DNA of 58,006 nt. Origin: Roseburia sp. (GTDB lineage Bacteria > Bacillota > Clostridia > Lachnospirales > Lachnospiraceae). A program made the position numbers and the translations under genes. Each line of letters starts with the position of its first letter. Within the stretch, counting starts at the first letter, position 1. A model generated the notes under the pieces. It did not search any database. It was not told the DNA's origin and saw only the letters and a program-made list of their open reading frames with translations. The stretch spans positions 1 through 58,006 of the forward strand of contig JAMPIG010000010.1 of assembly GCA_023662875.1 (NCBI GenBank), written 5' to 3'. Shown here one piece after another: positions 25,616 to 50,194 of the stretch.

Positions 25616-25679
25616 ATTATGACATTTTCCGCCGAAAAATTATCCCCCCAAATCCGATTCAAAATCCCACAAATCCGAC
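25616..25679 (-). promoter_or_regulatory. Regulon operator-promoter O1 (lipoprotein gene)
   Basis: Plus-strand half-sites AAATCCGAT at 25650 and AAATCCGAC at 25671, 21 bp apart; on the minus strand they read CGGATTT. A CATAAT box (25616-25621) lies 28 bp beyond the proximal half-site. The start codon is about 43 bp further. The operator partly overlaps the stop of the solute-binding protein gene upstream. Confidence 0.8.
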
Positions 25680-27220
25680 TATTCTTCCCTCTGCAAATCA
25701 TACTGCCGCTGCTTTTCGCGGATGATCTCGTCCATCCCGGCCATCTTCAGCTGCAGAAGGAACTCCTGATACAGGGGATCGACCTCCGCACTGCCGCTCT
25801 CCAACAGGGGCACGTACTTCTCCGTCACCTTCCGCACCGCCGCCAGCTCCCCGCTGACCGGCTCCGTATCGAAGGAAAAATCCAAGGCCTCCTCCCGGTT
25901 TCGCAGAGCCTCCTGTTCGTAAGTCCGCTTCCGCTCTATCGTCTCCGGCGAATCGAAGGTGTACATCCTTCTTCTGTCCCCGTAAAGATACAGGGGATTA
26001 TAATAACCCGTCGTACTCCGATAGACGCCGTAGGGATAGCCGATCCGCCCGGTCTCCACGTCCAGCACCACATAATGCCTGCTGGCAATCCCGTACTGGA
26101 TCAGATTGGCGATCCTTTCGTCCGTGTACATCAGGTTCAGGAACCTCATAGCCGCCTCCGGATTCCCGCTGGTAACGGGAATCGTCCAGAAGCCGCTCCT
26201 GGAATTCCCGGCTTCCAGGACGACTGGACTGGTTCGCAGGCAAATCGTTTTCTCCCCGAAAATCTCCTCCTGACTATATCCTGGCGAGCTGGCCCAGGGA
26301 TAGGAAAGAACAAGCCCTTCTGCAATCAGCTCCTCCTGATAGGCGTCCGTAAACGCCGCGTCCGGATAGATATAACCCGCCTTGTAGCAGTCTCTCAGCC
26401 AATACAGGTACGCGAGATATTCCTGAGACTCATAATAATCCGCCACCAGGCCCTCCTCCGTCAGGATACCGGAGACCGGATCCCCTCCCAGCCCGCTCCG
26501 GGGGCCGCCGTAATAAGTCCAGGCGGAAGAGGTATTCCCCGCCGTGATCTGACCTAAGGGATAGCTGTCCGGGTAGAGCTCCTTGCATCTTTGAAAGAAC
26601 TCTCCCAGCTCCTCCAGGGTATAAACATGCTTTTCCCCGTAATCCAGCCCGGCCTTTTCCGCCAGGGATTCCGCCACCCAGAGACCCACGCCGCTTCCGG
26701 CATAATCCGGAATTACCGACACACCGTAAGCCTCCCCCCTGACGACAGCCCCTTCGGTCAGACGGATGCCCTCCTCCGCAAATCCCAAAAGCTCCTGCCC
26801 CTCTTTCTCCAGCAGCCCGTCCAGAGGATACAGCATCTTCTGGTTGACGTAGGTCGTGATATCCTGATAGTTCAGCATCATCAGGTCGATTCGCTCCCCC
26901 CGGCTGATCCAGAGGGGGTATTCCGTAAACGCCTCCGAAGCGCCTGCCACCCGGAATTCGATCTCCACCCCGATCTCCTCGACGCTGATCCGGTTGATCT
27001 CCTCCGTCACCTCCTCCAGATCCCGAATCGAGCTGGTCGGCATCGTCTGGTAGGTCACAATCAGGCGCTCCGCCGCCTCATAGGATGAAGGCGCATCCTC
27101 CGAGGACGGCGTCTCCGCGTCTTCCCTCTGCCCCCCCTGACAGCCGGTCAGAAAAAGGGCAGTTGAAAGCAGGCAGAAGCAGGCTTTCCCATATCTTCGG
27201 AGCTTCTCTCTTCTTCTCAA
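25679..27220 (-). CDS. Extracellular solute-binding lipoprotein (family 1, DUF3502-like C-terminus)
   Basis: 513 residues if translation starts at the TTG at 27220, seven bases after GGAGG and overlapping the kinase stop as TTGA. This gives MRRREKLRRYGKACFC with a lipobox FLTGCQ. The upstream in-frame extension to 27622 is only the kinase's repeat region read in another frame. The mature protein has periplasmic-binding-protein features (LIVTYQTMP, GVEIEFRVAG, IDLMMLNYQDITTYV) and a C-terminal MAGMDEIIREKQRQYDLQ as in DUF3502 oligosaccharide-binding proteins. It is coupled to the YesM-type kinase, so it may deliver ligand to the kinase rather than, or besides, to a transporter. Confidence 0.85.
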   Translation of the reverse strand: MRRREKLRRYGKACFCLLSTALFLTGCQGGQREDAETPSSEDAPSSYEAAERLIVTYQTMPTSSIRDLEEVTEEINRISVEEIGVEIEFRVAGASEAFTEYPLWISRGERIDLMMLNYQDITTYVNQKMLYPLDGLLEKEGQELLGFAEEGIRLTEGAVVRGEAYGVSVIPDYAGSGVGLWVAESLAEKAGLDYGEKHVYTLEELGEFFQRCKELYPDSYPLGQITAGNTSSAWTYYGGPRSGLGGDPVSGILTEEGLVADYYESQEYLAYLYWLRDCYKAGYIYPDAAFTDAYQEELIAEGLVLSYPWASSPGYSQEEIFGEKTICLRTSPVVLEAGNSRSGFWTIPVTSGNPEAAMRFLNLMYTDERIANLIQYGIASRHYVVLDVETGRIGYPYGVYRSTTGYYNPLYLYGDRRRMYTFDSPETIERKRTYEQEALRNREEALDFSFDTEPVSGELAAVRKVTEKYVPLLESGSAEVDPLYQEFLLQLKMAGMDEIIREKQRQYDLQREE

Positions 27221-29373
27221 TTCCGCGCCTCCTCTCCCGGTTTCTCCTCTGTCTTCCTTGATTCCTGCTTCGCCTTCCCGGTTTTCTCCTCTGTCCTTCC
27301 GGAGTCCTCCTCCGGCTTCCCGGTTTTCTCCTCTGTCCTTCCGGAGTCCTTCTCCGGTTTCCCGGTTTTCTCCTCTGTCCTTCTGGAGTCCTTCTCCGCC
27401 TTCCCGGTTTTCTCCTCTGTCCTTCCGGAGTCCTCCTCCGCCTTCCCGGTTTTCTCCTCTGTCCTTCCGGAGTCCTTCTCCGCCTTCCCCGGCAGCTCCC
27501 GCAGCCCGCCGTCCTCCTCCAGGAACGGCAGATCCAGCCAGACCTGCGTCCCCTGGTTCGGACTGCTGACAAGATTCATGGACGCGTTCCCGCCGTAAAA
27601 GACCTCCAGCCTTCTTCTGCAATTCCAGACGCCGATGTGCTCCTTCCCCATCCTGTCCCGGTAAATCTCTCCCTTCTGCAGGCGTTCCAGAATCTCCGGC
27701 TTAATGCCCCGCCCTGTGTCGCAGACCGAGATCAGAAGCCTCTCCTCCTGACGCCGGATGTTGATCAGTACCTCGATGGTTCCCCCGGGAATCAGCGCGT
27801 ATTTCATGGCGTTCTCCACGAAATTCTCAATCAGAAGCGGCGGCACCAGCGCCTCCTCGCAGTCCGGCTGTATGTTATAGGCGCTGGTAAAGGCTCCCGG
27901 AAAGCGGATCTTCTGGATTCCCACATAATTCTCCACAAACTCCATCTCCTTCCGAAGCGGCACAAACCGATCCGTCTCCTTCAGGGAATAGCGGAAATAC
28001 TCCACCAGCAGCAGGGAATACTCCTGAATGCACTGATAATTCCGGGACTGCGCCAAACTGTAAATCATATTAAAGGAATTGAGCAGCATATGCGGATTTA
28101 CCTGAAGCCGCAGATTGTTCAGCTGGGCCTGGAACATCCTGGCGTCCTTCTCCTTCGACAGCCCAAGCTCCGCCGCCATGCGGTTAAAGCTCCGGTACAG
28201 GAAGACGAACTCCTCGCTCTCCCGCTTATCCCACTTCTCAATCCGGTATTCCAGATGCTCCCGCTCCAGCTCCTGCATCCCGTAATAGAGCGCGCCCAAG
28301 GCGTTCAGCACCCGCTTCCGAAGCGCCTTCCAGAGGAAAAACGCCAGCAGGACGGAGCCCAGGGACAGCAGCAGCAAAACCCAGTACAACACGGGAACCC
28401 TGCTCTGATAGCTTTGGTTCTCCGTCCGGATTCCTACCCGCAGATCCATCCCGTCCGCCTGCCAGAAAATATTTTCGCCGAGAATACTCCGCTCAAAAAG
28501 GCTCTCCCAATCTCTCCCCGGAACCAGCCGGAACCTCCCGTCCCGGAAAGTATATATCGTCCCCCCGCTCTCCAGATAGACCGGATTCTCCGACCAAAGG
28601 CCGGAGCTTCCCAGCGTCTCAATCTCCTGCTCCAGATCCAACAGAAAGCCCACGTCGTAGTTCGTGTATTCGTACTGCCTGCAGAGGAAACGCCGTCCCG
28701 CCAGGGAGCGGATCCGCCAGACTCCGGAGCTTTCCGCGGATGCGTTCTCCGGCGGACTGTTTTCTGCGCCGCCCTCCTTCGACGGATTTCCCGCAGAATC
28801 ATTTCCTGCGGCAGCTTCCTTCGGAGCGCTTCCCTCAGAAACTTCTCTCAATCCGCTCTCCGGCGCAATATCCCCCGCCGCGGTTTCCGCTCCCCGAATA
28901 CTGTCTTCATACTCCGCCCGAATCTCCCGCTTCAGCGCTTCGATCCAGGAGGCCTGGTACTGACCGGCGCTGTAACGGGCCAATACCCTGCCGCTCTTCC
29001 GGTCGATCAGACAGGCTGCTCCTGCCATACCGGAGGTCTCTCCCAGCTCCTTCAGCCTCCCCAGCATCTCGATCTCCGCCAGAGGGTCGCTGTCGGAGGC
29101 CAGGGTCAGCTCCGTCATATAGCTGACCAGAAAGTCCGAATAGCCCTCCTCCAGCCTTTCCAGCCCCAGCGTCACCCGGCTCATGGCCGTATCCAGCTCC
29201 CGCTGATAAGCGTCCCGAATCTGCCCGGAGGCCTGGAAAAAGATGACCCCGCTTACCAGGATCGCCAGCAGATTCACCGGCAGGAAGGTCACCGTGACCA
29301 GATAGGCCAGCCGGACGGAAAGCGTATTCCATTTTCCCCGTTTTTTTCCGAGCCGCCGCCCCTTTTCCGCCAT
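27217..29373 (-). CDS. YesM-type sensor histidine kinase with repetitive C-terminal tail
   Basis: 718 residues from the ATG at 29373, eight bases after AGGAGG. A transmembrane helix at about 23-45, a large extracellular sensor region (about 46-325), a second helix (about 330-352), a HAMP-like linker, then a His_kinase domain with phospho-acceptor in LRLQVNPHMLLNSFN, and an HATPase domain (LLIENFVENAMKYAL, CDTGRGI). After the normal end (about WLDLPFLEEDGG) comes a tail of about 95 residues made of 14-residue units such as EDSGRTEEKTGKAE. YesM kinases pair with a YesN AraC-type regulator, normally adjacent; none is present here. It lies between ABC permease genes and a binding-protein gene. 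Confidence 0.88.
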   Translation of the reverse strand: MAEKGRRLGKKRGKWNTLSVRLAYLVTVTFLPVNLLAILVSGVIFFQASGQIRDAYQRELDTAMSRVTLGLERLEEGYSDFLVSYMTELTLASDSDPLAEIEMLGRLKELGETSGMAGAACLIDRKSGRVLARYSAGQYQASWIEALKREIRAEYEDSIRGAETAAGDIAPESGLREVSEGSAPKEAAAGNDSAGNPSKEGGAENSPPENASAESSGVWRIRSLAGRRFLCRQYEYTNYDVGFLLDLEQEIETLGSSGLWSENPVYLESGGTIYTFRDGRFRLVPGRDWESLFERSILGENIFWQADGMDLRVGIRTENQSYQSRVPVLYWVLLLLSLGSVLLAFFLWKALRKRVLNALGALYYGMQELEREHLEYRIEKWDKRESEEFVFLYRSFNRMAAELGLSKEKDARMFQAQLNNLRLQVNPHMLLNSFNMIYSLAQSRNYQCIQEYSLLLVEYFRYSLKETDRFVPLRKEMEFVENYVGIQKIRFPGAFTSAYNIQPDCEEALVPPLLIENFVENAMKYALIPGGTIEVLINIRRQEERLLISVCDTGRGIKPEILERLQKGEIYRDRMGKEHIGVWNCRRRLEVFYGGNASMNLVSSPNQGTQVWLDLPFLEEDGGLRELPGKAEKDSGRTEEKTGKAEEDSGRTEEKTGKAEKDSRRTEEKTGKPEKDSGRTEEKTGKPEEDSGRTEEKTGKAKQESRKTEEKPGEEARN
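27239..27487 (-). repeat. 42-bp in-frame minisatellite in the kinase gene
   Basis: Six units of 42 bp, each containing TTCTCCTCTGTCCTTC and GGAGTCC(T/C)(T/C)CTCCG; the leftmost is diverged. Each encodes 14 highly charged residues of the kinase tail. Confidence 0.92.
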
Positions 29374-29452
29374 GTCTTCCCCCTCCTGTTCCTTCATTAT
29401 ATTTTATGGCGTTCCCTTTCGCAATCTTTTTCCGAAACTTTCCGGATACTTC

Positions 29453-29481: not shown

Positions 29482-29493
29482 CGCTATTTATAC

Positions 29494-30417
29494 TTATCCT
29501 TTAATTCCTCCCGCGATGACGCCCTTTTCCAGCTTATCCTGGAAGAAGGGGAAGAGAATCACGATGGGCAGGGTCGCCGCCACGATAACGGCGTACCGGA
29601 TCAGGTATCTGCTGTAGTCCGGGTTGGAGGACTGCAGAAAATTCTCGTTGTTCGCCGTGATCTCCTTGATGTAGAGCTGCAGCGGCCAGAGGTTTCTCTT
29701 GTTGGGCACATAGATCGACGCCTGCAGCCAGGAGTTCCACTGCCCTACCACACTGTTCAGGATGATGACGGAGCCAAGGTTCATCGCCTGGGGCAGCATG
29801 ATCTGGCTCATGGTGCGGAAGTGTCCCGCGCCGTCGATCCGGGCCGCCTCGTACATCTCCCTTGGAACCGAGTTAAAGGCGTTCATCATCATGACCATGA
29901 ACATGGCGTTGGTGCATCCCGGGATAATCAGCGCCAGACGGGTTCCCACCCAGCCCAGCTTCCGGATCACCATATAGGTCGGCACCATCCCGCCGCCGAA
30001 GAGCATGGTAACCATCATCGCCATAATCATGACGGTCTTCAGCCTGGTATCCCGGCTCATGGCGTAGCCTGCGGTACAGGCGATGAAAAAGCCCAGGGCC
30101 GTGGAGGAGACCGTATAAAGAATCGTGTTGAGATATCCGGTGATAATACTGCTGTCCTTGAAAATGTGCCGGTAGCCCGCCAGGGTAAAGCCCCCCTGGG
30201 GCAGCCAGGCCACTCCCTCGTGGGTCATCAGGATCTTCCCGTCCGAGAAGGAGGACATCAGTACATGCCACATAGGCACCAGGCTGCAGAAGGCCACCAG
30301 GGCGCAGAGCAGAATCACGATAATATCTACGATTCTGTCCCCGACGCTGGGATGCTCCACCATGGAGGAGACTCTGTTGTCGTCGTTCACATCGATTTTT
30401 TTCTTTCTCAAGCTCAT
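29494..30417 (-). CDS. Carbohydrate ABC transporter permease (LplC/YtcP type)
   Basis: 307 residues with six transmembrane helices and the cytoplasmic EAA loop EMYEAARIDGAGHFRTMSQIMLPQA at about 195-220, which contacts the ATPase. It ends in the characteristic YPFFQDKLEKGVIAGGIKG-like tail. This is one of two permeases of a family 1 oligosaccharide importer. The ATPase is not encoded here; such systems commonly share an MsmX-type ATPase encoded elsewhere. The gene follows its partner with a 14-bp gap. Confidence 0.94.
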   Translation of the reverse strand: MSLRKKKIDVNDDNRVSSMVEHPSVGDRIVDIIVILLCALVAFCSLVPMWHVLMSSFSDGKILMTHEGVAWLPQGGFTLAGYRHIFKDSSIITGYLNTILYTVSSTALGFFIACTAGYAMSRDTRLKTVMIMAMMVTMLFGGGMVPTYMVIRKLGWVGTRLALIIPGCTNAMFMVMMMNAFNSVPREMYEAARIDGAGHFRTMSQIMLPQAMNLGSVIILNSVVGQWNSWLQASIYVPNKRNLWPLQLYIKEITANNENFLQSSNPDYSRYLIRYAVIVAATLPIVILFPFFQDKLEKGVIAGGIKG

Positions 30418-30431
30418 GTTCTCCTCCTTTC

Positions 30432-31382
30432 CTAGAACAGGGAATTGCCGTCGCCGACCTTTTTACTTAAGGCGTTGGAGCCGACCAGCAGCACAGTACT
30501 CACAACAGACTGGAACAGGCCCGAGGCCGCGGAGAGACTGTAATTGTTTCCTCCTCCGCCGAAGGCCAGCCGATAAGTATAGGTATATACCGTATCCGCC
30601 ACATTATAGGTGGAGGGCATATAAAGAAGCAGGATATTGTCGTAGCCTGTGGAAAAGCTCAGGCCGATATTCAGGACGAACATCATGACGATGGTCGGCA
30701 TAATGCAGGGGAGAGTAATCTTCACCATTCTCTGCAGCCGGGAGGCCCCGTCGATAGCCGCGGCCTCGTGCAGGTCGCCGTTCACCGTTGCTATAGCCGC
30801 CACATACATGATGGAGCCCCAGCCGATCCCCTGCCAGACGCCCATCAGGACATAGATGATCCAGAAGACCGGGATCTTATCGTTGGCAAACCAGTTCTGG
30901 TTTTCCGCCCCGAATTTCGTCAGCAGCATGGTCAGCGGGCCGTCCTTCGACAAAAACTCGGTAAACAGGGCGCAGACCACGACCGCCGCCACAAAGTTCG
31001 GCAGATAGGAGCAGGTCTGCACCGTCCTCTTATATCGCTTGCTCTTCAGCATACTGAGCAGGAAAGCAAAGAGGATGGGGAACACAAAGCCGATAGTCGC
31101 CTTGATCACCGCGATACAGACCGTATTCCGCAGGGCGATGGGAAAATCCCCGCCTGTAAAAAGGATTACGAAATTTGTCATGCCGACCCACTTACTGCCG
31201 AAGAACCCCTTCCGCACCTCGTAATCCTCGAAGGCCATAACGATACCGAACATGGGGAAATAATGCAGTACAACGGTCATGACAAAGGCCGGCAGGAACA
31301 TCAGGTATACGGTTCCGTTTCTCTTGAAATCCTGTTTCCAAGACAGCTTCCTGGGCTTAAACACATCTCTTCCCTTCGCCAT
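30432..31382 (-). CDS. Carbohydrate ABC transporter permease (LplB/YteP type)
   Basis: 316 residues, six transmembrane helices, EAA loop DLHEAAAIDGASRLQRMVKITLPCI at about 210-235, and the family N-terminus LSWKQDFKRNGTVYLMFLPAF. It forms the membrane channel with the LplC-type partner downstream. In Bacillus subtilis YteP/YtcP/YtcQ imports rhamnogalacturonan pieces, which would fit the rhamnosidases here; that match is by analogy only. Confidence 0.94.
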   Translation of the reverse strand: MAKGRDVFKPRKLSWKQDFKRNGTVYLMFLPAFVMTVVLHYFPMFGIVMAFEDYEVRKGFFGSKWVGMTNFVILFTGGDFPIALRNTVCIAVIKATIGFVFPILFAFLLSMLKSKRYKRTVQTCSYLPNFVAAVVVCALFTEFLSKDGPLTMLLTKFGAENQNWFANDKIPVFWIIYVLMGVWQGIGWGSIMYVAAIATVNGDLHEAAAIDGASRLQRMVKITLPCIMPTIVMMFVLNIGLSFSTGYDNILLLYMPSTYNVADTVYTYTYRLAFGGGGNNYSLSAASGLFQSVVSTVLLVGSNALSKKVGDGNSLF

Positions 31383-31397: not shown

Positions 31398-33176
31398 CTA
31401 TCCGATAAAAGGATTTGCGTCGATGTAGGGCTGCAGCAGGTCGGTGATCTTCTGATAGTTGAACTTTTTCAGCATGGTACACCAGGTATTCCAGTCCTCA
31501 TCGTTGTCAATATCCGTGACGCCCTTGATAAACTCGTAGGTATGCTGCTCCATATAATTCAGCACCTTCGTCTGGGTATCCGTGATCGTCTTCGAATCCT
31601 CGCTGGTCAAGTTGGAAAAGGCGTCGCTGCCCCAGATCTGACCCTTGTTGATATACTTTACCCAAAGCTCCAGGCTGTGCTCGTAGGTCTCCGCGTAGCC
31701 TTCGTCTACGCTGCTGACCAGGGTCAGTCCTGGAATCTTATCCGCGCAGGTCGCGATCATCAGTCCGCCCGCGTCGTTTACAATCGCGTCCACCTTCTTA
31801 TAACGCCCGTCCTCACCCATGGTATAGGTTCCGCCGCCAATTCCGTTCTTTTCATAGAAGGAGGTATCCAATCCCGCTTCCTCCATCTGTGCCGGGGTCG
31901 CTCCCAGCGTACGGATCACCGCTCCCTCCTCGGAATAAAGATAATCCAGCATACTCAACAGGGGGCCGAGATCCTTCTCCTGGGCTCCATCCATCACCAA
32001 AAATCCTGTACCCGTCAGTCCGGTGGCCGCCTGGGTCGCCCAGGGCTCTATGTTCTTACATTCCGCCGTCCCGTAGACGTCGTTGATAGGCCACGCGCAG
32101 CCAGCCACATAGATTCCCTCGGTATAGCCGCCGTCGTGCAGATCCAACCGGCCGCCCAACTCGCCCTGGGTGCCGATCCACATGCCGATCTTGCCCAGAC
32201 GCTTGTTGGTATCGTCAATGGCGTAGAAGATGTCGCTGGTTCTCTCGTTGAAATCCTGATCCAGCCAGCCCTTCTCGTACCAGTTGTTCAGGCACTGCAG
32301 ATAGGCTCTCATGAACTCGGAGTCGCCGCCGAAGCGCACCTGGTCGTCGGAACCCTTATACCAGACGGGGATTGCCTCACCGAAGCAGGAGCAGAGGCCG
32401 CCGGACCACATATAGCCGGGATAATAGATACTGGTGCAGTAGGAATCTGTAATCCCCAGATCCGCCAGGGCCGTCTCAAAGATCCCGAACATCCATTCCC
32501 AGTCGCTGATATAGACAGGATCCGTATTCCCGCTGGGAAATACGACGTCGTCCACCCAGCTGTCTACGTCCGCGGGATCCGTATAACCCCCGGTAAAGTC
32601 CGCCCCGGTCTGGGGATTCTTTCCGTATTTTACAATCCAATCCCTGCGGTACATGGTGCCGGAAAAGTAATAGGGATAATCCTCGTTGACTCCGTTGATC
32701 ACCAGAATCTTATCCTCACCGTCAATATTGAATACGCATTTACTTCTCACTGCCTCGTTCGTCTCGATGAAATGATAATAATTCGGCATATACTGCTTGA
32801 CCAGATCGGTCAGATCGAGAATGCTCTCCGCTTCCAGCATAAGAGGCGGCGCTTCCGCTACCGAGTTTTGCATCAGCGTAGGGAAGTCTCCCGTCGCCAT
32901 CATGGTCTCGTAGTTGTTCTGCTGTCCGCCCGCCGGGGGAACCTGGAACTCCAAGGAGATCGTATCCCCGTTCTCCCCCCAGGTCTTGCTCAGCAGGTAC
33001 TGAATCGTCGGATTATCCGCATAATCCGTATAATAGGACGCGTCCTGCGCATTATAAAGCCAGACCGTATAGGTATGATCCGCCGAGGCGCTGCTCGCCG
33101 AATCCCCGCAGCCCGCCAGGGAAAGCGTCATGAGACCGCACGCCGCAGCCATTGCAAATTTTCGGAACCCTTTCAT
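31398..33176 (-). CDS. Extracellular solute-binding lipoprotein of the oligosaccharide ABC importer
   Basis: 592 residues. Signal peptide with lipobox LSLAGCG, then a Ser-rich linker and a large family 1 binding protein (YTVWLYNAQDAS, TISLEFQVPPAGG, GTMYRRDWIVKYGKNP). The C-terminal KFNYQKITDLLQPYIDANPFIG is usual for LplA/YtcQ proteins. It is the first gene of the transporter operon, 15 bp before the LplB-type gene, and is preceded by regulon promoter O2. It captures the oligosaccharide outside the membrane. Confidence 0.93.
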   Translation of the reverse strand: MKGFRKFAMAAACGLMTLSLAGCGDSASSASADHTYTVWLYNAQDASYYTDYADNPTIQYLLSKTWGENGDTISLEFQVPPAGGQQNNYETMMATGDFPTLMQNSVAEAPPLMLEAESILDLTDLVKQYMPNYYHFIETNEAVRSKCVFNIDGEDKILVINGVNEDYPYYFSGTMYRRDWIVKYGKNPQTGADFTGGYTDPADVDSWVDDVVFPSGNTDPVYISDWEWMFGIFETALADLGITDSYCTSIYYPGYMWSGGLCSCFGEAIPVWYKGSDDQVRFGGDSEFMRAYLQCLNNWYEKGWLDQDFNERTSDIFYAIDDTNKRLGKIGMWIGTQGELGGRLDLHDGGYTEGIYVAGCAWPINDVYGTAECKNIEPWATQAATGLTGTGFLVMDGAQEKDLGPLLSMLDYLYSEEGAVIRTLGATPAQMEEAGLDTSFYEKNGIGGGTYTMGEDGRYKKVDAIVNDAGGLMIATCADKIPGLTLVSSVDEGYAETYEHSLELWVKYINKGQIWGSDAFSNLTSEDSKTITDTQTKVLNYMEQHTYEFIKGVTDIDNDEDWNTWCTMLKKFNYQKITDLLQPYIDANPFIG

Positions 33177-39140: not shown

Positions 39141-39189
39141 GTTCATACCTCCTTGCGCGCTCCGCGCGCATACCAATCAATAGTCGCCC

Positions 39190-40691: not shown

Positions 40692-43034
40692 CTACTCCTT
40701 CCAGATATTTTTCCCCTCATGCAGAGGGATCACTCTATCCTGGCATATCACGGCGATACCGCTTGCATTTTGGGGCAGCGTCACCTGATATGCAATCTCC
40801 TTCTCTCTGCGCCTGTAGGAAAATTCCAGCATTCCCTGCCTTATCTCCACACGTCCCGAAAGATTCGGAAGCGCTTCTATTTCCTTAAAATGCGGCTCTA
40901 TCCGCACCGTCCCGTCCCGATCTGTGTGCACGCCGGCAATCGCGCAGACCATCTCATACATAGGCAGCGAGCTCCACGCATGGCATTCACTCCGGGAAGT
41001 GTACTCCGGAACCTCCGGACAGGTGGTGCAGTGCTCGTCCAGCAGCTCTATCCATCGGCGCAGGCTCCGATATGTCAGCCCGTATTCCCCCGCCGCTTCA
41101 CAGGCGCGAAACAGCTCATACGACGTAGAGAAGCTGCAGGGAATGATTTCTCCACGTCCTGAGACTGCCCCTTCTCCAAAGGCCGCCCGCATCACCTTCG
41201 CCGCCTCTTCCTTTCCGCACATGCCGCACAATACCGCCCAGCTTTGGGCGTGCTGGGAATACTCTTCAAATTCCGGCCCCTCCCGGTATAGGCATCTTGC
41301 TTCGTTATAGCATACCCTCTGTACGGTTTCTGTAATCGTCTTCTTTCTGCGACGATACTCCTCCGCCATCCCCGCCCTTCCCACAGACTCGCAGATACAG
41401 GCGGCCTGCTCCAGGGCGTAGGCGTACATCAGATTGATGATGGTGGAAGGGCCACGCTCCAGCGCATTGGGAGCTCCCCCGTGGGAGGCCCATGCCTGCT
41501 GCCAGTCCACAAAGGGCCAATACCCGATCTGCCCCACCAATCCGTACTTTTCTTCCCGATGGGAATCATAGTAGGTCAGGATATCATCCACATCTCCCAG
41601 ATATTTCCGGATTTCTTCCACGTCATTTGTATGATCGACGTACTCATTTATCATGAAGATATAGTAAAGAGAAAAGGTGGATATCATCTGGGGAAAGGCG
41701 CTGGGGGCCTTCCCCTGTATCAAACCGCAGGGGTGCCTGGAGCAGTGGAACTCCCACATTGCCTTTTTCACCAGCTCAATGTCTCCGCCGGACGCATAGG
41801 TAAACAGCGCCTGAAGTCTGGTATCCATAGGATACTGCATCTGCTCCCAGAAGGGGCAGTCCATATATCCGTCCATCATGCAGTTTTCCAACGTCCGAAG
41901 ACAGATGTCCCAAAGCCCCTTTACCCACGCCGCGCTGGAGGAAACCTGATTGACTGCCTGAAGCGGATAACCTGCCTTCCGGATAGCGGGAAGCTCGATT
42001 TCCGCCGCCTCGTCCGCCGTCTCCACATCCATGCGCAAAAAACGGATCGTCCGATACCAGAAGGGCTCGTATACCAGCTCCCTCCCGCTCAGAATCAGGG
42101 AATCCGTCTGCGGATTGCCGTACATTTTTCCCTGGATAAAGTCGTCCCGCTTTACCTGTTTTTCTTCCTGATAAAACTTTTCAAAGCAATGAATGGCAAC
42201 CCTGCAGTTTTTCCCGCCGGAAAAACCGAAACGCAGGTAACCGTTGCAAAGCGCTTCGGAGGTAAATAAAAACTGCCTGCGTTCATGAGGTTCAACCCTG
42301 CATGTCCCTCCGGAAAAAAACGCGCTTCCCATTTCCCGCAGGACGGTTGGTTCCTCCTCCTTCAGCAGCGGAATCGGGCGCGGATACAAGTGCAGCTTGT
42401 CCATCAGGCCCACCGCCTGCCGGAACCCGTCATGGGCGGCCGGAACCCTTACCTCCGCCGCCCTCCATCCCTCCTCCGCAAAATCCGATTTTTTCCAATC
42501 CAAATCTGTCCGGTTACAGTCGATCTGCTCCGACATTGCCCCCATAAATTCGTTTTTATCGCTTCCCTTTACCAGGGAAAAGCTGTCCTCCAGCCATACC
42601 TTCCATTGACCAACTCCCGTCGTCAGGTCGGCCAGAATTTCTCCCCTGCCGTCTGTCACCGCGGCGTCCACCGCCAGCAGATGCTCCCTGAAATGAGATA
42701 CCACGCTGTAGAGCGCCGCCCTCTCGTCCGCGCCGTCCACAACGCTCTCCTCGTCGAACAGAAGCACCTGAACCGCCAACACATTTTTCCCCTGACGAAG
42801 ATTAGGGCTCAAGTCCACCGTGTCGTAATAAGTATACCATTTATCGCCGCGGCAGGGCCCCGACAGAACCGGCTCTTCATTCACCCAGAGCCGATAGCGC
42901 GAATTGGCGGAGATGCCCGCCACGCATTTCCCCGGCTCCGACAGATGAAACGTCGTCCTGTAATACGCAAATTTTCCGTTGAGATTTTGTCCCTTTCCTT
43001 CCGGCAAGGCAATCCAACCGGCTTTTTCCCACAT
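40692..43034 (-). CDS. GH78-like alpha-L-rhamnosidase
   Basis: 780 residues. N-terminal sandwich domains (ANSRYRLWVNEEPVLSGP, NVLAVQVLLFDEES) are followed by the (alpha/alpha)6 barrel. The catalytic region DGYMDCPFWEQMQYPMDTRLQALF corresponds to the DCP-x-RE...D motif of GH78, with WEQ replacing the more usual acidic triplet. ECHAWSSLPMYEM and the C-terminal sandwich follow. No signal peptide. It is the last intact gene of the operon from O5, separated from GH3 by an SGNH remnant. It differs strongly from the 7819-10455 enzyme, so the two probably cut different linkages. Confidence 0.85.
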   Translation of the reverse strand: MWEKAGWIALPEGKGQNLNGKFAYYRTTFHLSEPGKCVAGISANSRYRLWVNEEPVLSGPCRGDKWYTYYDTVDLSPNLRQGKNVLAVQVLLFDEESVVDGADERAALYSVVSHFREHLLAVDAAVTDGRGEILADLTTGVGQWKVWLEDSFSLVKGSDKNEFMGAMSEQIDCNRTDLDWKKSDFAEEGWRAAEVRVPAAHDGFRQAVGLMDKLHLYPRPIPLLKEEEPTVLREMGSAFFSGGTCRVEPHERRQFLFTSEALCNGYLRFGFSGGKNCRVAIHCFEKFYQEEKQVKRDDFIQGKMYGNPQTDSLILSGRELVYEPFWYRTIRFLRMDVETADEAAEIELPAIRKAGYPLQAVNQVSSSAAWVKGLWDICLRTLENCMMDGYMDCPFWEQMQYPMDTRLQALFTYASGGDIELVKKAMWEFHCSRHPCGLIQGKAPSAFPQMISTFSLYYIFMINEYVDHTNDVEEIRKYLGDVDDILTYYDSHREEKYGLVGQIGYWPFVDWQQAWASHGGAPNALERGPSTIINLMYAYALEQAACICESVGRAGMAEEYRRRKKTITETVQRVCYNEARCLYREGPEFEEYSQHAQSWAVLCGMCGKEEAAKVMRAAFGEGAVSGRGEIIPCSFSTSYELFRACEAAGEYGLTYRSLRRWIELLDEHCTTCPEVPEYTSRSECHAWSSLPMYEMVCAIAGVHTDRDGTVRIEPHFKEIEALPNLSGRVEIRQGMLEFSYRRREKEIAYQVTLPQNASGIAVICQDRVIPLHEGKNIWKE

Positions 43035-43039: not shown

Positions 43040-43212
43040 TTTTCCTCTTTTCTGTAACATTCCCCCGGTATACTCTCCAACTGCCTTATTTCCTTCCCGG
43101 TTCGGGTGTACGCCATCGCCAAACCATTCGTCGTATCCCGCCGTAAACGTATGCAGGCCGATTAACGGAAGCTTTTTTCCGCCGCCATTTTTTAACCATT
43201 TTCCGATACCCG
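43040..43212 (-). pseudogene. 3' remnant of an SGNH esterase gene
   Basis: Between the GH3 stop and the GH78 start, one frame reads KWLKNGGGKKLPLIGLHT, then FTAGYDEWFGDGVHPNREGN and KAVGEYTGGMLQKRGK. DGVHPNREG is block V of SGNH hydrolases with the catalytic Asp and His (compare WDRVHPNRVG in the intact gene at 23163). The preceding four fifths of the gene, including the nucleophile, are gone. The last GH3 codons (TIGRVSENG) may already come from the fusion. Confidence 0.75.
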
Positions 43213-45600
43213 TCCGATGGTGTAAAACTTCCTGCTCTTTCCGGAAATCACCTTATCCTCCCTGATCTTAAAGGAACCCGTCAGGCGGATATCGTCGGCC
43301 GCAGCGCCCACCATGACGGTGAATGCGCCCTTCTCGATCTTCCACTCATGCTCCTTCTTCCGGGTCAGGAAAGCGGTCTGGCTGGGATCCAGGGCAAAGG
43401 AGACTGATCTTTTTTCGCCGGGGGCAAGCGAAACCCTGGCGAAGCCGTAAAGCTCCAGATTGGGGCGCACCATGGACGCCGCCTCGTCCCGCAGGAACAG
43501 GTAGGGAATCTCCACAGCCTCCATCTTCCCTGTATTCTCGATGTCCACGGAAACCGTCACTGCCTGGTCAGGATCGCATTCCGCCTTGTCGATGCAAAGG
43601 TTGGAATAGACAAAGTCCGTATAGTGCAGGCCGTGGCCGAAGTAGTACCGGGGCGCATGGGAGCCGTCCACATAGTTGGTAAAGCCGATGCTCCTGGCCT
43701 GGGTCGTACCGGAGCCGAAGGGCTGATAATAGTACACCGGAATCTGGCCCGCGTTCGCCGCGACGCAGACAGGCAGCTTCCCGCTGGGACTGACCTTCCC
43801 GAGGAGCACGTCGGCGATGGCCTCCGCACCGGCCTCCGACGGACACCAGCACTCCAAAATCGCCGCCAGCTTCTCATCGGCGATGTCGCTGGAAACAGGT
43901 CGTCCGGAGAAATGCAGCCCCACCATAGGCTTACCCAGCTTTGCGGCCTCCTCGATAAACGCTTCCTGACACTGGGGCAGACCGATATCCATGGTATCGA
44001 TGCCCTCGCCCACGGTGCAGATGGATCCGCTGCCCCATTTCCCGCCTAAGGTCAACAGAATCAGATCCGCGTCCCTGGCAATTTCCAGCGCCTCCGCAAA
44101 ATGGGAGGTATCGGCACCATACTTGGGATACCCGAAGGCGCAGCGGATTTCCGCGTCCGGCATCCGGGCGGTCAGCTCTTCCAGGAGACTGCGGCAGCCC
44201 GGCTTCTGATGCTTCAGTACCGCGTCGAAGGGAGCCTGCTCGTCGTCCTGTACCTGGGTGCCGGGGACGAGGATGTTCTCCGGGCGGTCTGTCTTGTCGG
44301 ACTGGCCTACGCCCGCCATGGAGTTGGTAGCGGCAAGGAGGGCCGTAGCCATATCCATATGGGTATAGCCGCCGAACAGATACCGGGCATTATCGGCGTG
44401 GCAGCCGATCACAGCGATTTTTTTCACATCCGGGCGTATGGGCAGCACATCCTCGTTTTTCAGCAACACAAGAGACTCCCGGGCGGAGGCCAGGGTAAGC
44501 TCCCGGTTCTCCCGCTCGTCAAAAATCTGCTGAATCCTCTCAACGTCCATAGCAAAGGGATCCTCGAACAACCCCATGCGGAACTTCGCGGTCAATACCC
44601 GCAGACAAGCCTGATCTAACAGCGCCATATCCGCCGTACCGTCCTTGAACTGCCGGGCAAATTCCTTGGAATTAAAGCACTGGGGCATGGGCAGCTCCTG
44701 ATCCATCCCCGCCTCCAAAGCCATCAGCCCCACCTCGGTCAGGGACTCCCCCACATGGTCAAACTCATAGGCGTTAGAGATTCCGCCGTAATCGGAGAAC
44801 ACACAGCCGTCAAAGCCCATTTCCTCCCGAAGGATCTCCGTCAGGTAATAGCGGGAGAGGGAGAAAGGCTCCCCGTTCACCGCGCAGTAGCAGGGCATCA
44901 CGCCCCGAAGATCCGCTTCCGCAATAGCGGCCTGGAAGGGCTTTCCAAAGGTCTGCAGATGATCCCGGTCGCAGAGATCCGCATTCGCTCCGTGGATACC
45001 GCCGGAGGACGCATGGAAGCCGTAGAAATGCTTGGCCACCGCGTCCGCCCGCTTACCGGCTATCTCCGGCTTCTGGAGCCCCCTCGTAAAGGCGGAACCC
45101 ATCGCGCTGACGAGAGTCGGATCCTCGCCATAGCTCTCGCCGCAGCGTCCCATCCTGGGGTCCCTCGCCACATCCAGCACCGGTGCCAGGATATGGGTAA
45201 TCCCACAGGCCAACTCCTGCCTGGCCACCATTTCCCCCAGCTTCTCCTCCAGCTCCACATCAAAGGAGGAACCGCGGCTTACGCCGGAGGGGAGGGAAGT
45301 GCTGCCCTGGACAAAGCTGCCGCACAGGCCCTCCATATGGAAGATAGCAGGGATGTGATGGGGGCTGCGCTCCATGATGTCCTTCTGCAGCCTGCGCTGC
45401 CATGCTGCCACCTCCTCCAGGGACTTCATATCCCGGGTACACAGGCAGCTGATCTCGCCCATGCCGTTTTGCAGAAAGGGCAGCATCCGGTCGTACAGTC
45501 CCTCTATGTACATGATCCCGCCAATCTGGGCCACCTTTTCGTCCACGCTCATATCATCCAGCAGCGCTTGCGCTTTTTCTCTGCATTCTTCGTTTGTCAT
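43192..45600 (-). CDS. GH3 beta-glycosidase
   Basis: 802 residues. TIM-barrel domain with PAIFHMEGLCG, APVLDVARDPRMGRCGESYGEDP and the nucleophile Asp in DGCVFSDYGGI (about 275). The (alpha/beta)6 sandwich domain follows (LVLLKNEDVLPI, VAVIG-like IAVIGCHADNARYLFGGY), with a C-terminal fibronectin-like domain (YLFLRDEAASM...FTVMVGAAADDIRLTGSF). Beta-glucosidase or beta-xylosidase activity is expected; residues deciding between them cannot be judged by eye. No signal peptide. It follows GH2 by 31 bp. Confidence 0.93.
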   Translation of the reverse strand: MTNEECREKAQALLDDMSVDEKVAQIGGIMYIEGLYDRMLPFLQNGMGEISCLCTRDMKSLEEVAAWQRRLQKDIMERSPHHIPAIFHMEGLCGSFVQGSTSLPSGVSRGSSFDVELEEKLGEMVARQELACGITHILAPVLDVARDPRMGRCGESYGEDPTLVSAMGSAFTRGLQKPEIAGKRADAVAKHFYGFHASSGGIHGANADLCDRDHLQTFGKPFQAAIAEADLRGVMPCYCAVNGEPFSLSRYYLTEILREEMGFDGCVFSDYGGISNAYEFDHVGESLTEVGLMALEAGMDQELPMPQCFNSKEFARQFKDGTADMALLDQACLRVLTAKFRMGLFEDPFAMDVERIQQIFDERENRELTLASARESLVLLKNEDVLPIRPDVKKIAVIGCHADNARYLFGGYTHMDMATALLAATNSMAGVGQSDKTDRPENILVPGTQVQDDEQAPFDAVLKHQKPGCRSLLEELTARMPDAEIRCAFGYPKYGADTSHFAEALEIARDADLILLTLGGKWGSGSICTVGEGIDTMDIGLPQCQEAFIEEAAKLGKPMVGLHFSGRPVSSDIADEKLAAILECWCPSEAGAEAIADVLLGKVSPSGKLPVCVAANAGQIPVYYYQPFGSGTTQARSIGFTNYVDGSHAPRYYFGHGLHYTDFVYSNLCIDKAECDPDQAVTVSVDIENTGKMEAVEIPYLFLRDEAASMVRPNLELYGFARVSLAPGEKRSVSFALDPSQTAFLTRKKEHEWKIEKGAFTVMVGAAADDIRLTGSFKIREDKVISGKSRKFYTIGRVSENG

Positions 45601-45631: not shown

Positions 45632-48169
45632 TCATTCCCTTACCGCTGCAATATCGATTTCCGTCTCCTGGCTCATGCCCGCTTCCCCTTCTATCCGCAA
45701 AAGCGCCTTCCCGGGCCTGTCGGTACTTCGAATCACGGCGTAAGCGCATCCCCTGTACGTCGTAAACTCCCCTGCCGCATAGCTCTCCGCCGTAATCGGA
45801 TTCCCCGAGCCGAAACCGGCAAGAATGGCTTCTCCGACGACGGACGCCTTCAGATGATGCGCAGCGTCCGGAACCCTTCTTCCCTCTCGGTCTACAATCT
45901 CCACCAGGGCATAGGCGAGACTATATCGATCTGCGATGATCTGCGTCTTATCCGCCGTAATTTTCAGGGCATATGCCTCCCCCGCGGTCACAAGCCGGTC
46001 TCTTGACACCTCCTGACCATCCGTATAGCTGACCGCCGTCACTTCCCCGGGCTCGTACTCTGTCTCAAACACAAAAGTCAAAGGCATATCGTCTATACAG
46101 AGAGCCTCTCCCTGCTTCTTCCTGCCCACGATTTTCCCGTTCACGGACAGTTCCACCTCTTCCGCCCTGCTGAAGACCAGGAGCTGTGTCATCTTTCCTT
46201 CCGCGCCCTTCCAATTCCAGCTCCTCTGACAGGAAGGAAAACCCCAGTTGCTGAGTATTTCCTTTTTCCCGTAATTCGCCGGGTCATAGGAAAACAGATA
46301 AGTTTGATCGGAGCCAAAAACGACGCTCCTGTAATTTCCCTGGGGCAGAATCATGCCCCCGATATCAATATCCCCGCAGTTTGCCAGCCTGCTGGGAAAC
46401 TGGGAGGGCTCGGAAGCGACACCGTTGGCTCCCCGCTTCATTCTGGGGTCGTCCGGCTCAACGAACAAGGCTTTTCCAATACCGGCTTCCCCGATATAGT
46501 CCCACGCCGTCCAGGTAAAATCCCCGATTATATAGGGCTGCTTCTCCACCATAGGCCATCTCTTCCCGATTTCCTTCGGGTAATTTTCCGACCCAAGGAT
46601 CACCCGCTCCGGGTACATCTCGTGATCCCTGGGATACTTATCCTCCATGTAATTATAGCCCACAATATCCAGTCCGTTCGTAAAGGCTTCCGACATTTCC
46701 TCCCAGCTGTCGTCTTCCTTTCCCCCGTCCACATTCTGCAGGGAATCGACTCCTTCTTTCATGTGCTGTACCATCTTGCGCAGATTTTCCGCCATCAGGC
46801 AATCGTCAAGCCCGTTCCAGTAGGTACAGATTCCATTGCTGACAGGTCGGCTTCGATCCAGCAGCTTCACCTTTTCCGCAAGCCTTGTGGCCAGCGTATA
46901 GCCGTGGTTTAAGCCGCCGCGTTCCACAATCTCATTTCCGGTGGACCAGATGATCACCGCAGGGTGATTTCTGTCCCTCTTGACAAAGGCGGTCAGGTCT
47001 TCCTCCCAGTCTGCGTCAAAATACTGGTTGTAATCCCCCGGCTGCTTGCCCATTCCCCAAGCGTCGAAGGCTTCCGCAAATACATACATGCCAAGCCTGT
47101 CGCATACCTCCAGCAGAATCTTCGATGGCGGGTTGTGGGTGGTGCGGATCGCGTTAAACCCGATTTCTTTCATCTTGCTGATGCGGCGCACCTCCGCGTC
47201 ATAAAGGGAAACCGCGCCGATCACGCCATTGTCATGATGCACGCAGCCGCCCTTTAATTTTACCTGTTCCCCATTGATCAAGAGTCCATTCTGCACATCC
47301 GCGCTGATGCTTCTGATTCCGAACAAAACGGAATCCTCATCCGCCGTTTTCTCTTCCGACTCCACAAAATGAGTCTTGAAAACGCCGATATCCGTCACTT
47401 TTGCCGCAAGGCGATACAGCTGGGGATCGTCCGCCCTCCAGAGCTTTGGCTGCTGCACGGTCAGGGCAAGATAGGCGGTCTCGGTGGTTCCTGCGTCAAT
47501 CTGTATTTTGGACTGCCGTTTCACCACAGTCTCTCCGGTTTCCTCTTTCACGAGCGAGACCTCCACGATTGCCATATGGTCCTCCCCGGTGGTATTGCGT
47601 ACTTCCACCTCTGTATTCAGGAACGCTGCAACCGCCTCCCCTTTCTCATTACAGGAAATTCTTTTCGTATAGCCGTAGATGCCGTCATTTACAATATGTA
47701 TTTTGGGAGTATGAAGCAGCTCCACCGACCGGATGATTCCCGCCCCTGTATACCAACGCGCATTGGGCTGCATACTGGGATTCACGGTTACCGTCACCTG
47801 ATTTGTCTCCCCGCAAAAGACATAGGAAGTAATGTCCAGACAAAACGGAGTATAGCCACAGTGATGGAGCGCCGCTTTCCCGCCGTTCACTTCTACCGTG
47901 GCATTCATCATCACCCCGTCAAACCGCAGAAAAATCCTGTCCTGTTCCCATTCCTTCGGTATCTCCAGCTTTTTCTTATAATGAGCGGTCAAGGCCGTGT
48001 AATAACCGCTGGCAGCTCCGGCAGGGGCATCCTCCCTCACTTCCGTCCCAATCATGTAATCATGGGGCAAATTTACCGTAATCCCCTGCCCCTGGCCTAA
48101 AAAATCACTGTACGGGTTTGGCGTCCCGTTTTCGAACCTCCAATTTTCGTCGATATTCTGTACTCTCAT
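45632..48169 (-). CDS. GH2 beta-galactosidase-family enzyme
   Basis: 845 residues from MRVQNIDENWRFENG after GGAGG. Sugar-binding domain, immunoglobulin-like domain, then a TIM barrel with acid/base Glu in VIIWSTGNEIVERGG (about 410) and nucleophile Glu in VILGSENYPKEIG (about 525). GDFTWTAWDYIGEAGIGK and a DUF4982-like domain (LLVFSRAEEVELSVNGKIVGRKK) plus a C-terminal Ig-like domain match the shorter beta-galactosidases of gut bacteria. Intracellular. It is the second gene of the operon from O5. Confidence 0.93.
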   Translation of the reverse strand: MRVQNIDENWRFENGTPNPYSDFLGQGQGITVNLPHDYMIGTEVREDAPAGAASGYYTALTAHYKKKLEIPKEWEQDRIFLRFDGVMMNATVEVNGGKAALHHCGYTPFCLDITSYVFCGETNQVTVTVNPSMQPNARWYTGAGIIRSVELLHTPKIHIVNDGIYGYTKRISCNEKGEAVAAFLNTEVEVRNTTGEDHMAIVEVSLVKEETGETVVKRQSKIQIDAGTTETAYLALTVQQPKLWRADDPQLYRLAAKVTDIGVFKTHFVESEEKTADEDSVLFGIRSISADVQNGLLINGEQVKLKGGCVHHDNGVIGAVSLYDAEVRRISKMKEIGFNAIRTTHNPPSKILLEVCDRLGMYVFAEAFDAWGMGKQPGDYNQYFDADWEEDLTAFVKRDRNHPAVIIWSTGNEIVERGGLNHGYTLATRLAEKVKLLDRSRPVSNGICTYWNGLDDCLMAENLRKMVQHMKEGVDSLQNVDGGKEDDSWEEMSEAFTNGLDIVGYNYMEDKYPRDHEMYPERVILGSENYPKEIGKRWPMVEKQPYIIGDFTWTAWDYIGEAGIGKALFVEPDDPRMKRGANGVASEPSQFPSRLANCGDIDIGGMILPQGNYRSVVFGSDQTYLFSYDPANYGKKEILSNWGFPSCQRSWNWKGAEGKMTQLLVFSRAEEVELSVNGKIVGRKKQGEALCIDDMPLTFVFETEYEPGEVTAVSYTDGQEVSRDRLVTAGEAYALKITADKTQIIADRYSLAYALVEIVDREGRRVPDAAHHLKASVVGEAILAGFGSGNPITAESYAAGEFTTYRGCAYAVIRSTDRPGKALLRIEGEAGMSQETEIDIAAVRE

Positions 48170-48253
48170 CTCATCCTCCCACTTCTTACAAGTTTTTAAA
48201 CTTCCTCGCAAACAATATCGCCTGTAAAACAGGTTTTTCATCCCTCCGGAGAT

Positions 48254-49882
48254 CTAATGCAGGCAAAAGCTTCTGAAATCCAGACTTCCCTTCCCGCGGA
48301 ACGTAAAATACAGGGCTCCTTCCCCGTCCGGGATCCTCACATCGCCCTCCGCTTCCCGCCACGCTGCGCTGGCAGGGCCGGTTGGAGCGCTCTCTGCCGC
48401 ATGGAAAGCGGTCGAGAGGCTTCCCTTTACTATGTTGCAAAAACCGACCGGGGTAGTCTCCTCCGCCGAGTCGGAAGCGATCGGAATCCTCCCCAGCACC
48501 TCGCCGCCGGGCGTCGTCCGTATCTCAAGCACGCCCTCCGCTTCCCCGCGTACCTCCGCCGATATTTTCCGCAAACAGTCAAACCGAAAATATTTATATC
48601 CGGCGGTAGAGCCGTCCCGCAGATTCTTCACATATTGAAAAGGAATCTTCTCATCCTCCTCCAAAAGCTCCGCCGTCGGCTCTCTGTCCGGGATATCCTG
48701 GGTCAGGTAGGGATAATCCATCTTCATCGCCAGCGGGTGGGAAAAGGCCGCTCCCTTCGCCGACGTCAGATGACAGCAGATCCGGGCCGGATACCTGCCC
48801 CTCCCCTCCAGCGGCCCGCCGTTTAAACCGCAGGAGGTCACCTCCGCCTGGGCAATCCGCCCCTCCTTGTCAAAGAAAATCTTTTCCGCGCAGCCCTGCC
48901 TGCTGAAGTTTGTCCGGTTCGTCTGCCTGTGGTAAAATACATACCACCGCCCGTCCGCACATTCGATACCGCCATGGGTATTTCCCAGACAGTTCACTGC
49001 CTCCTTGTCTGTCCTCCCATCCAGAAAGACGTCCCCGATATCTACCAATGTCCCGCCGTACCGGTAATCGGCGTCCGGGCGGCTGCTTACCGCGTAGCAC
49101 AACTCATGGCTTTGCACCGAGGAATAGACAAAATAATAGACCCCGTTTACCTTCCGGATAGAGCTGGCTTCAAAAAACTCGTGTCCTTCAAATCCTGTCC
49201 CCTCGCTGTCAAAGACATCCGGCAGCAGCTTCCTTGGTTCCTCCGCCAGCGTCACCATATCCGGCCTAAGCCGCATCACCTGGCTCCCCTGCTTTCCCCG
49301 GCCAGCCTCCTTTTTCATGGGCGCGTTGCCGGAATACAGGTAAATCTGTCCGTCGTCGTCAACAAAAACGCCCGGATCAAACTGCGCCAGATCCTTTTCC
49401 CCCGCGCCCAGAATCGTACCGTCCCCGTGGCGTACAAGTCCCAGAAATTCATATTTCCCAGCCGGGCTGTCACATACGGCCACCCCAATCTCCGGCAGAA
49501 AATCCAGACAGTAATACAGATAATACCTGCCGTCCGGCCCCCTGACCACATCCGGGGCCCACATGGCATGAACTCCCCTGGGATTTAAGTCCTCCTCGGA
49601 TTCGGGTTCAATCCCGAACAGTAATGTCTGCGCCGGTGCATCCTCCGATATGCTCTGGTTTCGGGGATCCTGCTCCTTCCGATAAATGACGCCCTCGTAC
49701 CGCCATTTTGTCAGATCGTGCACATCCGCCGAATAGCAGACATAGTCGTTCAGGCAGAAGCCCGCTCCCCGGAAACGATCATGACTGCCGTACAGGTACA
49801 GCCGGCCGTCAAACACATGCGGCTCCCCGTCCGGAACGTACTCAAAGGAGGGCATATAAGGGTTAAAAACCTGTTTTTTCAT
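48254..49882 (-). CDS. GH43-family glycosidase with C-terminal beta-sandwich
   Basis: 542 residues. The five-bladed propeller begins NPYMPSFEYVPDGEPHVFDGRLYLYGSHD, where the Asp of PDGEP is the likely general base. YLYYCLDFLPEIGVAVCDSP and the acid Glu in GHEFFEASSIRKVNGVYYFVYSS follow, and the C-terminal 200 residues are a sandwich module. This resembles GH43 enzymes acting on arabinose- or xylose-bearing side chains. No signal peptide. It is the first gene under O5; its leader of about 240 nt contains the 39-bp repeat array. Confidence 0.92.
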   Translation of the reverse strand: MKKQVFNPYMPSFEYVPDGEPHVFDGRLYLYGSHDRFRGAGFCLNDYVCYSADVHDLTKWRYEGVIYRKEQDPRNQSISEDAPAQTLLFGIEPESEEDLNPRGVHAMWAPDVVRGPDGRYYLYYCLDFLPEIGVAVCDSPAGKYEFLGLVRHGDGTILGAGEKDLAQFDPGVFVDDDGQIYLYSGNAPMKKEAGRGKQGSQVMRLRPDMVTLAEEPRKLLPDVFDSEGTGFEGHEFFEASSIRKVNGVYYFVYSSVQSHELCYAVSSRPDADYRYGGTLVDIGDVFLDGRTDKEAVNCLGNTHGGIECADGRWYVFYHRQTNRTNFSRQGCAEKIFFDKEGRIAQAEVTSCGLNGGPLEGRGRYPARICCHLTSAKGAAFSHPLAMKMDYPYLTQDIPDREPTAELLEEDEKIPFQYVKNLRDGSTAGYKYFRFDCLRKISAEVRGEAEGVLEIRTTPGGEVLGRIPIASDSAEETTPVGFCNIVKGSLSTAFHAAESAPTGPASAAWREAEGDVRIPDGEGALYFTFRGKGSLDFRSFCLH

Positions 49883-49964: not shown

Positions 49965-50140
49965 GATTGGATTCTATTATAGCTCTTGGATAATAGAATC
50001 CTGTCTTGGATTCTATTATAGCCCTTAGATAATAAAATCAGCTCTTGGATTTTATTATAGCCCTTAGATAATAAAATCAGCTCTTGGATTTTATTATAGC
50101 CCTTAGATAATAAAATCGGCTTTCCGATTTTATTATAGCA
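49965..50140 (-). repeat. 39-bp palindromic tandem repeat array in the GH43 operon leader
   Basis: Units start at 49967, 50006, 50045 and 50084 with a partial fifth at 50123, exactly 39 bp apart. Each has GATT(T/C)TATTAT and ATAATA(A/G)AATC arms around AGC(C/T)CTT(A/G)G. On the minus strand every unit carries GCTATAAT; the first such box (50132-50137) is the -10 of promoter O5. The 477-bp gap 49883-50359 otherwise holds only O5, P3 and a terminator. Confidence 0.92.
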
Positions 50141-50194
50141 GAAACAAGATAAAGAGCATCCTGCAAATCCGATTGAAACTATCACAAATCCAGC
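50132..50194 (-). promoter_or_regulatory. Regulon operator-promoter O5 (GH43-GH2-GH3-GH78 operon)
   Basis: Half-sites AAATCCGAT at 50165 and AAATCCAGC at 50186 (plus strand), 21 bp apart. TATAAT on the minus strand at 50132-50137, exactly 27 bp after the proximal half-site and inside the last 39-bp repeat unit. Confidence 0.88.

Follow-up and report, generated by a model that had tools for sequence, protein, structure and literature searches.

A stretch of 58,006 nucleotides from the draft genome of a Roseburia species (GenBank assembly GCA_023662875.1, contig JAMPIG010000010.1; hereafter the window) carries, between positions 25616 and 50192, five minus-strand promoters, O1 to O5, that share one architecture: two direct half-sites resembling CGGATTT, starting 21 base pairs (bp) apart, and a -10 hexamer 27 or 28 bp beyond them, with no good -35 element. 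Comparison of these sequences with those of related genomes indicates that O1 to O5 are very probably the operators of an AraC-type response regulator, encoded on a different contig (C123) and paired with the YesM-type sensor kinase encoded at 27217-29397 of the window. Most likely the regulator is half of a two-component system, perhaps part of a three-component one. The regulon is of a known kind, and direct-repeat activators of this class have already been described, for example in Caldicellulosiruptor; what is new here is the regulon itself, the separation of its regulator from the kinase, and evidence that a 21-bp geometry is shared while its letters change.

Operator-promoters and their specificity

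All five sites were located on the minus strand where the original prediction had placed them, with half-site starts exactly 21 bp apart in each (5/5) and with the -10 hexamers at the distances it had given, counted from where the proximal half-site ends. O1 (25616..25677) has its half-sites at 25677-25671 and 25656-25650 and the hexamer CATAAT at 25621-25616, a gap of 28 bp. The gap is 27 bp in the other four: O2 (33212..33272; a CGGATTT pair before TATAAT), O3 (35847..35907; CGGATTT distal and CGGATTC proximal, before TACAAT), O4 (40622..40682; a CGGATTT pair before TAAGAT), and O5 (50132..50192; TGGATTT distal and CGGATTT proximal, before TATAAT). The claim that CGGATTT occupies both half-sites thus holds for three of the five pairs and fails by the letters just given in O3 and O5; the conserved core claimed for the spacer is present, in loose form in O1. 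The absence of a good -35 was borne out, the best match to TTGACA in the region 15-19 bp from the -10 having only 2 to 4 of 6 bases. Promoters activated by AraC-type proteins typically have direct half-sites separated by about two helical turns, the proximal one at a weak or absent -35, and these promoters share both features.

The sites are not a product of chance, because they stand apart in leave-one-out scoring and because the pair is rare in the genome. Matrices built with one site hidden gave the hidden sites 27.0-38.6 bits, and any non-site in the window scored at most 16.3 bits. The exact CGGATTT pair occurs three times in the 3.72-megabase draft genome, always within the window, against about 0.02 occurrences expected from base composition. 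When as many as three mismatches were allowed over the 18 fixed bases, 11 matches were obtained in the genome, namely O1 to O5 and six others, all six (6/6) inside open reading frames delimited by a simple caller; the reversed control gave none. A genome-wide scan had been named beforehand as one of the tests that could refute the prediction, and the pattern emerged from it as specific to O1 to O5, the six further matches being weak and intragenic. The five promoter sites are real.

A caveat applies to O5, the -10 of which shares four bases with a palindromic repeat distributed across the genome. This palindrome, TAATARAATC-N8-GATTYTATTA, has 72 copies genome-wide when one mismatch is allowed, and its reversed control has 0. 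A 39-bp tandem array of it lies directly after O5 (49967-50139), and it is found again at 7661-7688. Among the copies listed, arrays of exactly 39-bp period are frequent, and the arms co-vary (A/T or G/C).

Conservation and the displaced candidate regulator

The architecture recurs in other species of the genus. A pattern tolerating up to two mismatches matched 32 of 61 genus genomes, this one included; several close sites were found in this genome and in G026 only, and the remaining 30 contained one to three scattered matches with one or two mismatches, individually unchecked. A search with the kinase over 138 genus genomes located the gene cluster in G510 and G039 as well. The cluster sites of all three relatives have half-sites 21 bp apart. 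Contig C24 of G026 carries three sites before homologous genes, each 27 bp from a -10 (TATACT, TATACT, and TATAAT); contig C56 of G510 carries four before homologous genes, at 27-28 bp, among which the counterpart of O1 has a gap of 27 bp; and contig C14 of G039 carries two diverged sites, also before homologous genes, at 27 bp. When the O2 promoters of this genome, G510, and G026 were aligned, operator and -10 exceeded their poorly conserved flanks, and in the alignment of the O3 promoters of this genome and G026 the operator likewise stood out from its flanks.

Fifteen sites were pooled for statistics: five from this genome, three from G026, four from G510, two from G039, and one from locus L127. 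Left out were the sites of G134 (22-bp spacing), G110 (CCGATTT), G026 contig C81 (poor -10), and G481. The first six bases are near invariant in both half-sites, and the core letters A, T, and T at positions 13, 15, and 16 of the distal unit are kept in 15/15 sites; at the corresponding offsets of the proximal unit, which lie over the -35 region, they are kept in 10, 8, and 5 of 15. Monomers of the AraC family make two DNA contacts, and a core confined to the distal unit is what would be expected if the second contact of the proximal monomer fell over the -35.

The letters of the motif are narrow in range, since the strict pattern, applied to 397 family genomes with this one among them, matched this genome alone and missed G134 and G110, both of which were in the sample with diverged sites. 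In eight relatives a search with three mismatches produced 4 to 14 matches per genome in 8/8 (reversed control, 0 to 4); the cluster sites of G510 and G026 headed their lists, and those of G039 and G134 were missed. On the same G039 contig, at about 42921 on the minus strand (locus L088), a different 21-bp repeat, GAAATTT, lies 27 bp before TACAAT and upstream of a gene that by eye resembles glucosamine-6-phosphate deaminase.

No response-regulator gene lies between the kinase gene and the lipoprotein gene that follows it (25679-27220), either in the window or in G510, and the G026 contig ends inside the kinase gene. In G039, a receiver-AraC response regulator of 271 amino acids is encoded exactly at that place, and a receiver-AraC regulator also adjoins the kinase in G134 and L127. 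The closest relative of the G039 regulator in this genome (G000) is a protein of 266 amino acids encoded outside the window, at G000:C123:15102-15902, with the domains PF00072 and PF12833/PF00165. It is 59-60% identical to the G039 protein, 79% to its G510 counterpart, and 81% to the partial one of G026. Its gene has a P-type ATPase gene on one side and, on the other, an opposite-strand gene lacking a Pfam family; a sigma70-like promoter, TTGTGC-17-TAAAAT, lies about 57 bp before its start codon. The best solved matches of the protein are 6swf and 6swb, and the closest solved relative of the kinase is 6swj, a histidine kinase; 6swj and the regulator domains 6swf, 6swb, and 6swi, which are labelled as a two-component response regulator, belong to what we take to be a Geobacillus sugar-sensing pair and are relatives of the present pair at the level of sequence only. 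The features of a YesM/YesN-type system are therefore partly in place: a PF06580 kinase and a receiver-AraC regulator are present, but their genes are not side by side, an arrangement that is usual for such systems though not a strict requirement.

Orthologs of the regulator gene directly follow a GH43 gene in G510 and G026. The G510 copy is probably still within the glycan cluster, because the start of its contig C107 appears by eye to be the remainder of the lipoprotein gene on which contig C56 breaks off. Of 34 systems picked by regulator similarity, 29 have kinase and regulator side by side, and those that do not are this genome, G510, G026 (different contigs), G110, and L130. Identities of the kinase core and of the regulator, compared across all 34 systems, correlate with r 0.865, and the identity profiles of this genome's kinase and regulator over the 33 other systems correlate with r 0.969.

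The motif follows the lineage of the regulator. CGGATTT-like pairs accompany regulators that share 53% or more identity with the C123 protein, in G510, G026, G039, L127 (gap 27 bp), G134 (gap 27 bp), and G110 (CCGATTT, gap 28 bp). A matrix scan of seven loci with less similar regulators (L217, L218, L091, L089, L090, L092, and L126) found a CGGATTT-type pair in 0/7. Their top score was 16.6, as compared with 19.5-27.4 for the sites of G039, G110, G026:C81, and L127 and 36.9-45.5 for the 12 sites from which the matrix was built; the G134 site was missed owing to the fixed spacing. At two of the seven the geometry recurs with different letters: TGGATTT at two sites in G026:C2, and TGGAATA in G238.

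In G481 (L266 C109, L265 C66, and L214 C20), the transporter, kinase, and lipoprotein genes are in fragments, the kinase core is absent from the matched pieces, and the regulator is without most of its receiver domain. Four operators are recognizable there: one has a spacing of 22 bp and a good -10, one has no -10, and two keep both the 21-bp spacing and the -10. Unless the draft assembly is at fault, G481 holds a natural regulon in decay.

Proposed mechanism and its alternatives

We suggest that the kinase would sense an extracellular sugar ligand, perhaps through the lipoprotein 25679-27220, and phosphorylate the C123 regulator, two monomers of which would occupy the direct repeats. The distal monomer should contact CGGATTT and the TAGTTTC-like core, and the proximal monomer CGGATTT together with a second contact over the missing -35; the latter would replace the -35 box and recruit sigma70 polymerase to the -10 hexamer 27-28 bp away. 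Feedback may be part of the scheme, in that the kinase gene probably lies in a regulated unit and the regulator gene has a sigma70-like promoter of its own. The original prediction of an AraC-type activator acting next to the -35 position gains support from the specificity of the sites, from their conservation within the genus, and from their link to one lineage of AraC-type regulators. Its local carbohydrate regulon survives as far as sites and targets are concerned and requires revision as to the regulator, the likely gene for which is on another contig and does not encode a free-standing AraC protein.

Several observations weigh against this interpretation. The alignment of O1 with its G510 counterpart adds little, the flanks being conserved too, and the relaxed pattern that is sharp in this genome is noisy in its relatives. 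The half-sites of G134 are 22 bp apart, and the -10 of the G026:C81 site, GAGAAT, is poor. The boundary of the lineage is not sharp, since the G026:C2 regulator, only 46% identical to the C123 protein, accompanies TGGATTT pairs that differ from CGGATTT by one base. Sites, kinase, transporter, and regulator occur together, so that the tie between motif and regulator is not independent of shared descent. No operator-like site was found before the C123 regulator gene in this genome; the genome has 29 further AraC-type hits besides that protein; and the assembly is a draft of 151 contigs, in which the distance separating C11 from C123 can be followed no farther than the contig ends.

With 30 AraC hits in the genome and two AraC-type genes in the window itself, a free-standing AraC protein (6266-7438, 10731-11618, or one encoded elsewhere) might bind the sites in response to a cytoplasmic sugar, leaving the kinase to serve some other regulator. 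Tandem-repeat sites lying upstream of promoters have likewise been described for single-component AraC regulators of Caldicellulosiruptor bescii (PMC8579813). We consider this unlikely. The C123 regulator tracks both the kinase and the motif, in a comparison run for that protein alone among the AraC proteins. The 10731-11618 product is a GyrI-type protein with an N-terminal helix-turn-helix. As for the 6266-7438 protein, it is disfavored as the regulator: no ortholog of it was found in G510, G026, or G039 (best match 36%, partial), although those genomes carry the sites.

LytTR regulators are the other usual partner of PF06580 kinases and bind direct repeats about 21 bp apart. The kinase family and the repeat spacing would therefore be compatible with ownership of the sites by a LytTR-type response regulator. 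Yet the related systems have receiver-AraC regulators beside the kinase instead, CGGATTT is unlike the LytTR consensus, and no LytTR protein was present among the proteins scanned against Pfam, a set short of a whole-genome LytTR scan; we give this explanation almost no credence. Scarcely more credible is the proposal that a promoter block was copied and spread with the genes, leaving the repeats as remnants that are not under selection. All five sites do lie in one 25-kilobase region, but the 27-bp stretch differs among them while half-sites, spacing, and -10 are kept, across species as well, and some sites are damaged where the cluster decays, in G481.

Putative target genes, related systems, and the 21-bp geometry

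All of the genes assigned to the five promoters are on the minus strand. O1 is followed by a lipoprotein gene (24083..25573, ATG at 25573) whose product has no Pfam family. The O2 unit begins with a lipoprotein gene (31398..33176) that has no Pfam hit and is taken to encode a solute-binding protein from its place before two sugar-type ABC permease genes (both PF00528), 30432..31382, at 15 bp, and 29494..30417, after a 14-bp gap. The unit probably continues, across 96 bp, into the kinase gene (27217..29397; PF06580 and HATPase_c) and from there into a second solute-binding lipoprotein gene (25679..27220; SBP_bac_1/DUF3502), the start codon of which overlaps the kinase stop; the product of this last gene is perhaps a sensor subunit. 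A 42-bp tandem repeat, present in 6.1 copies (27235-27489), encodes the charged C-terminal tail of the kinase and sits about where the response-regulator gene begins in G039.

O3 precedes a gene (33418..35682) for a protein of 754 amino acids from a family without a Pfam model. The family is large, with 2104 matches among 8000 scored candidates, and has a GGSGGG motif; the predicted fold is weakly esterase-like, in that a model of low confidence (mean pLDDT 68.7) bears a weak resemblance to MHETase and feruloyl esterase, and we claim no function for it. The O4 unit encodes a GH1 beta-glucosidase (39190..40554) and, after 13 bp, a nucleoside-hydrolase-like protein (38088..39176). The O5 unit encodes GH43 (48254..49882), GH2 (45632..48241, 12-bp gap), and GH3 (43192..45600, 31-bp gap) enzymes and probably ends with a rhamnosidase-like gene (Bac_rhamnosid6H, 40692..43034), for which a promoter of its own is possible because of the 157-bp gap before it. 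This enzyme content suggests that the sugar is a branched plant glycan or glycoside. Adjoining the regulon, at 50360-51094, is a gene for a protein with a C-terminal ribonuclease domain (PF00545).

Within the accessible portions of the literature, the closest worked example of this anatomy is CuaDSR of Ruminiclostridium cellulolyticum, in which a solute-binding protein, a kinase, and an AraC-type regulator control a sugar ABC transporter and an enzyme (PMC5663094, PMC10384115) and CuaR acts in Escherichia coli as an activator of the cuaA upstream region (PMC5663094). There the regulator is encoded inside a constitutive kinase operon, whereas here it lies apart and we propose an operator; the text of that paper uses neither the word "repeat" nor the word "motif" (PMC5663094). 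For AraC-type two-component regulators of C. bescii, such as BxgRS, widely spaced tandem repeats lie upstream of promoter elements, and activators are predicted for three of five such systems; these regulators are described as local or cognate, in contrast to the displaced one described here (PMC8579813). Hemicellulose genes of R. cellulolyticum are governed by the two-component regulators XuaDSR and XydSR (PMC12175519, PMC3572039). XuaDSR also acts at a genomic distance, and its authors, in 2025, were unable to identify conserved binding sites (PMC12175519); for XydR, shared repeats of several spacings are given and, in the text available, no consensus is named (PMC3572039); and pneumococcal YesN yielded no clear repeat motif (PMC11034029). 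Our search, outside which lay most subscription papers and all figures and supplements, found no account of the CGGATTT motif or of a stated 21-bp/27-bp rule.

Whether the 21-bp geometry extends beyond this clade was addressed with a letter-free test at 27 outside loci, in which 22 binding-protein-like promoters were searched for a 9-base repeat before a good -10 at 21 bp and at 20 other spacings from 12 to 32 bp. Repeats matching in at least 8 of 9 bases were found at 21 bp in 5/22 promoters (other spacings: mean 0.15, maximum 1), and at 7/9 in 6/22 (mean 1.05, maximum 4). Among 340 other promoters of the 27 loci, 8/9 repeats numbered 4 at 21 bp (mean 0.60, maximum 2), and 7/9 repeats numbered 14 at 21 bp versus 15 at a spacing of 20. 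In the five promoters with 21-bp repeats the register to the -10 shifts by about 5 bp, and the 21-bp period is therefore better supported than an exact 27. Across 57 loci of a wider Firmicutes set, 21 bp was not distinct at 8/9 (2/44; others mean 0.40, maximum 2), and the 7/9 count was 6/44 (others mean 1.15, maximum 5). An agnostic repeat scan of promoters of 57 regulator loci gave no peak at 21 bp (14, versus 45 at 20 and 21 at 22). The restriction to binding-protein-like promoters was chosen after that negative scan and is thus a second look; an earlier restricted set (43 promoters, 37/56 loci), in which 21 bp also stood out, included loci of the window's own clade, which the 22-promoter test excluded. 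We judge the chances about even that the compact receiver-AraC regulators of sugar systems share a geometry of 21-bp direct repeats at a short and almost constant distance from a bare -10, with letters that vary by regulator lineage.

AraC-type two-component systems govern the use of plant glycans in Firmicutes, and for several of those studied the binding sites are undefined. The split pair described here warns that a search for the regulator only beside the kinase can fail, and the relatives supply a natural series, with the regulator adjoining the kinase in G039, following a glycosidase gene in G510 and G026, standing by itself in this genome, and damaged together with its cluster in G481. 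If the geometry is shared as we suspect it may be, the regulons of many uncharacterized Firmicutes systems could be readable from sequence by geometry alone, including those whose regulators have drifted away from their kinases.
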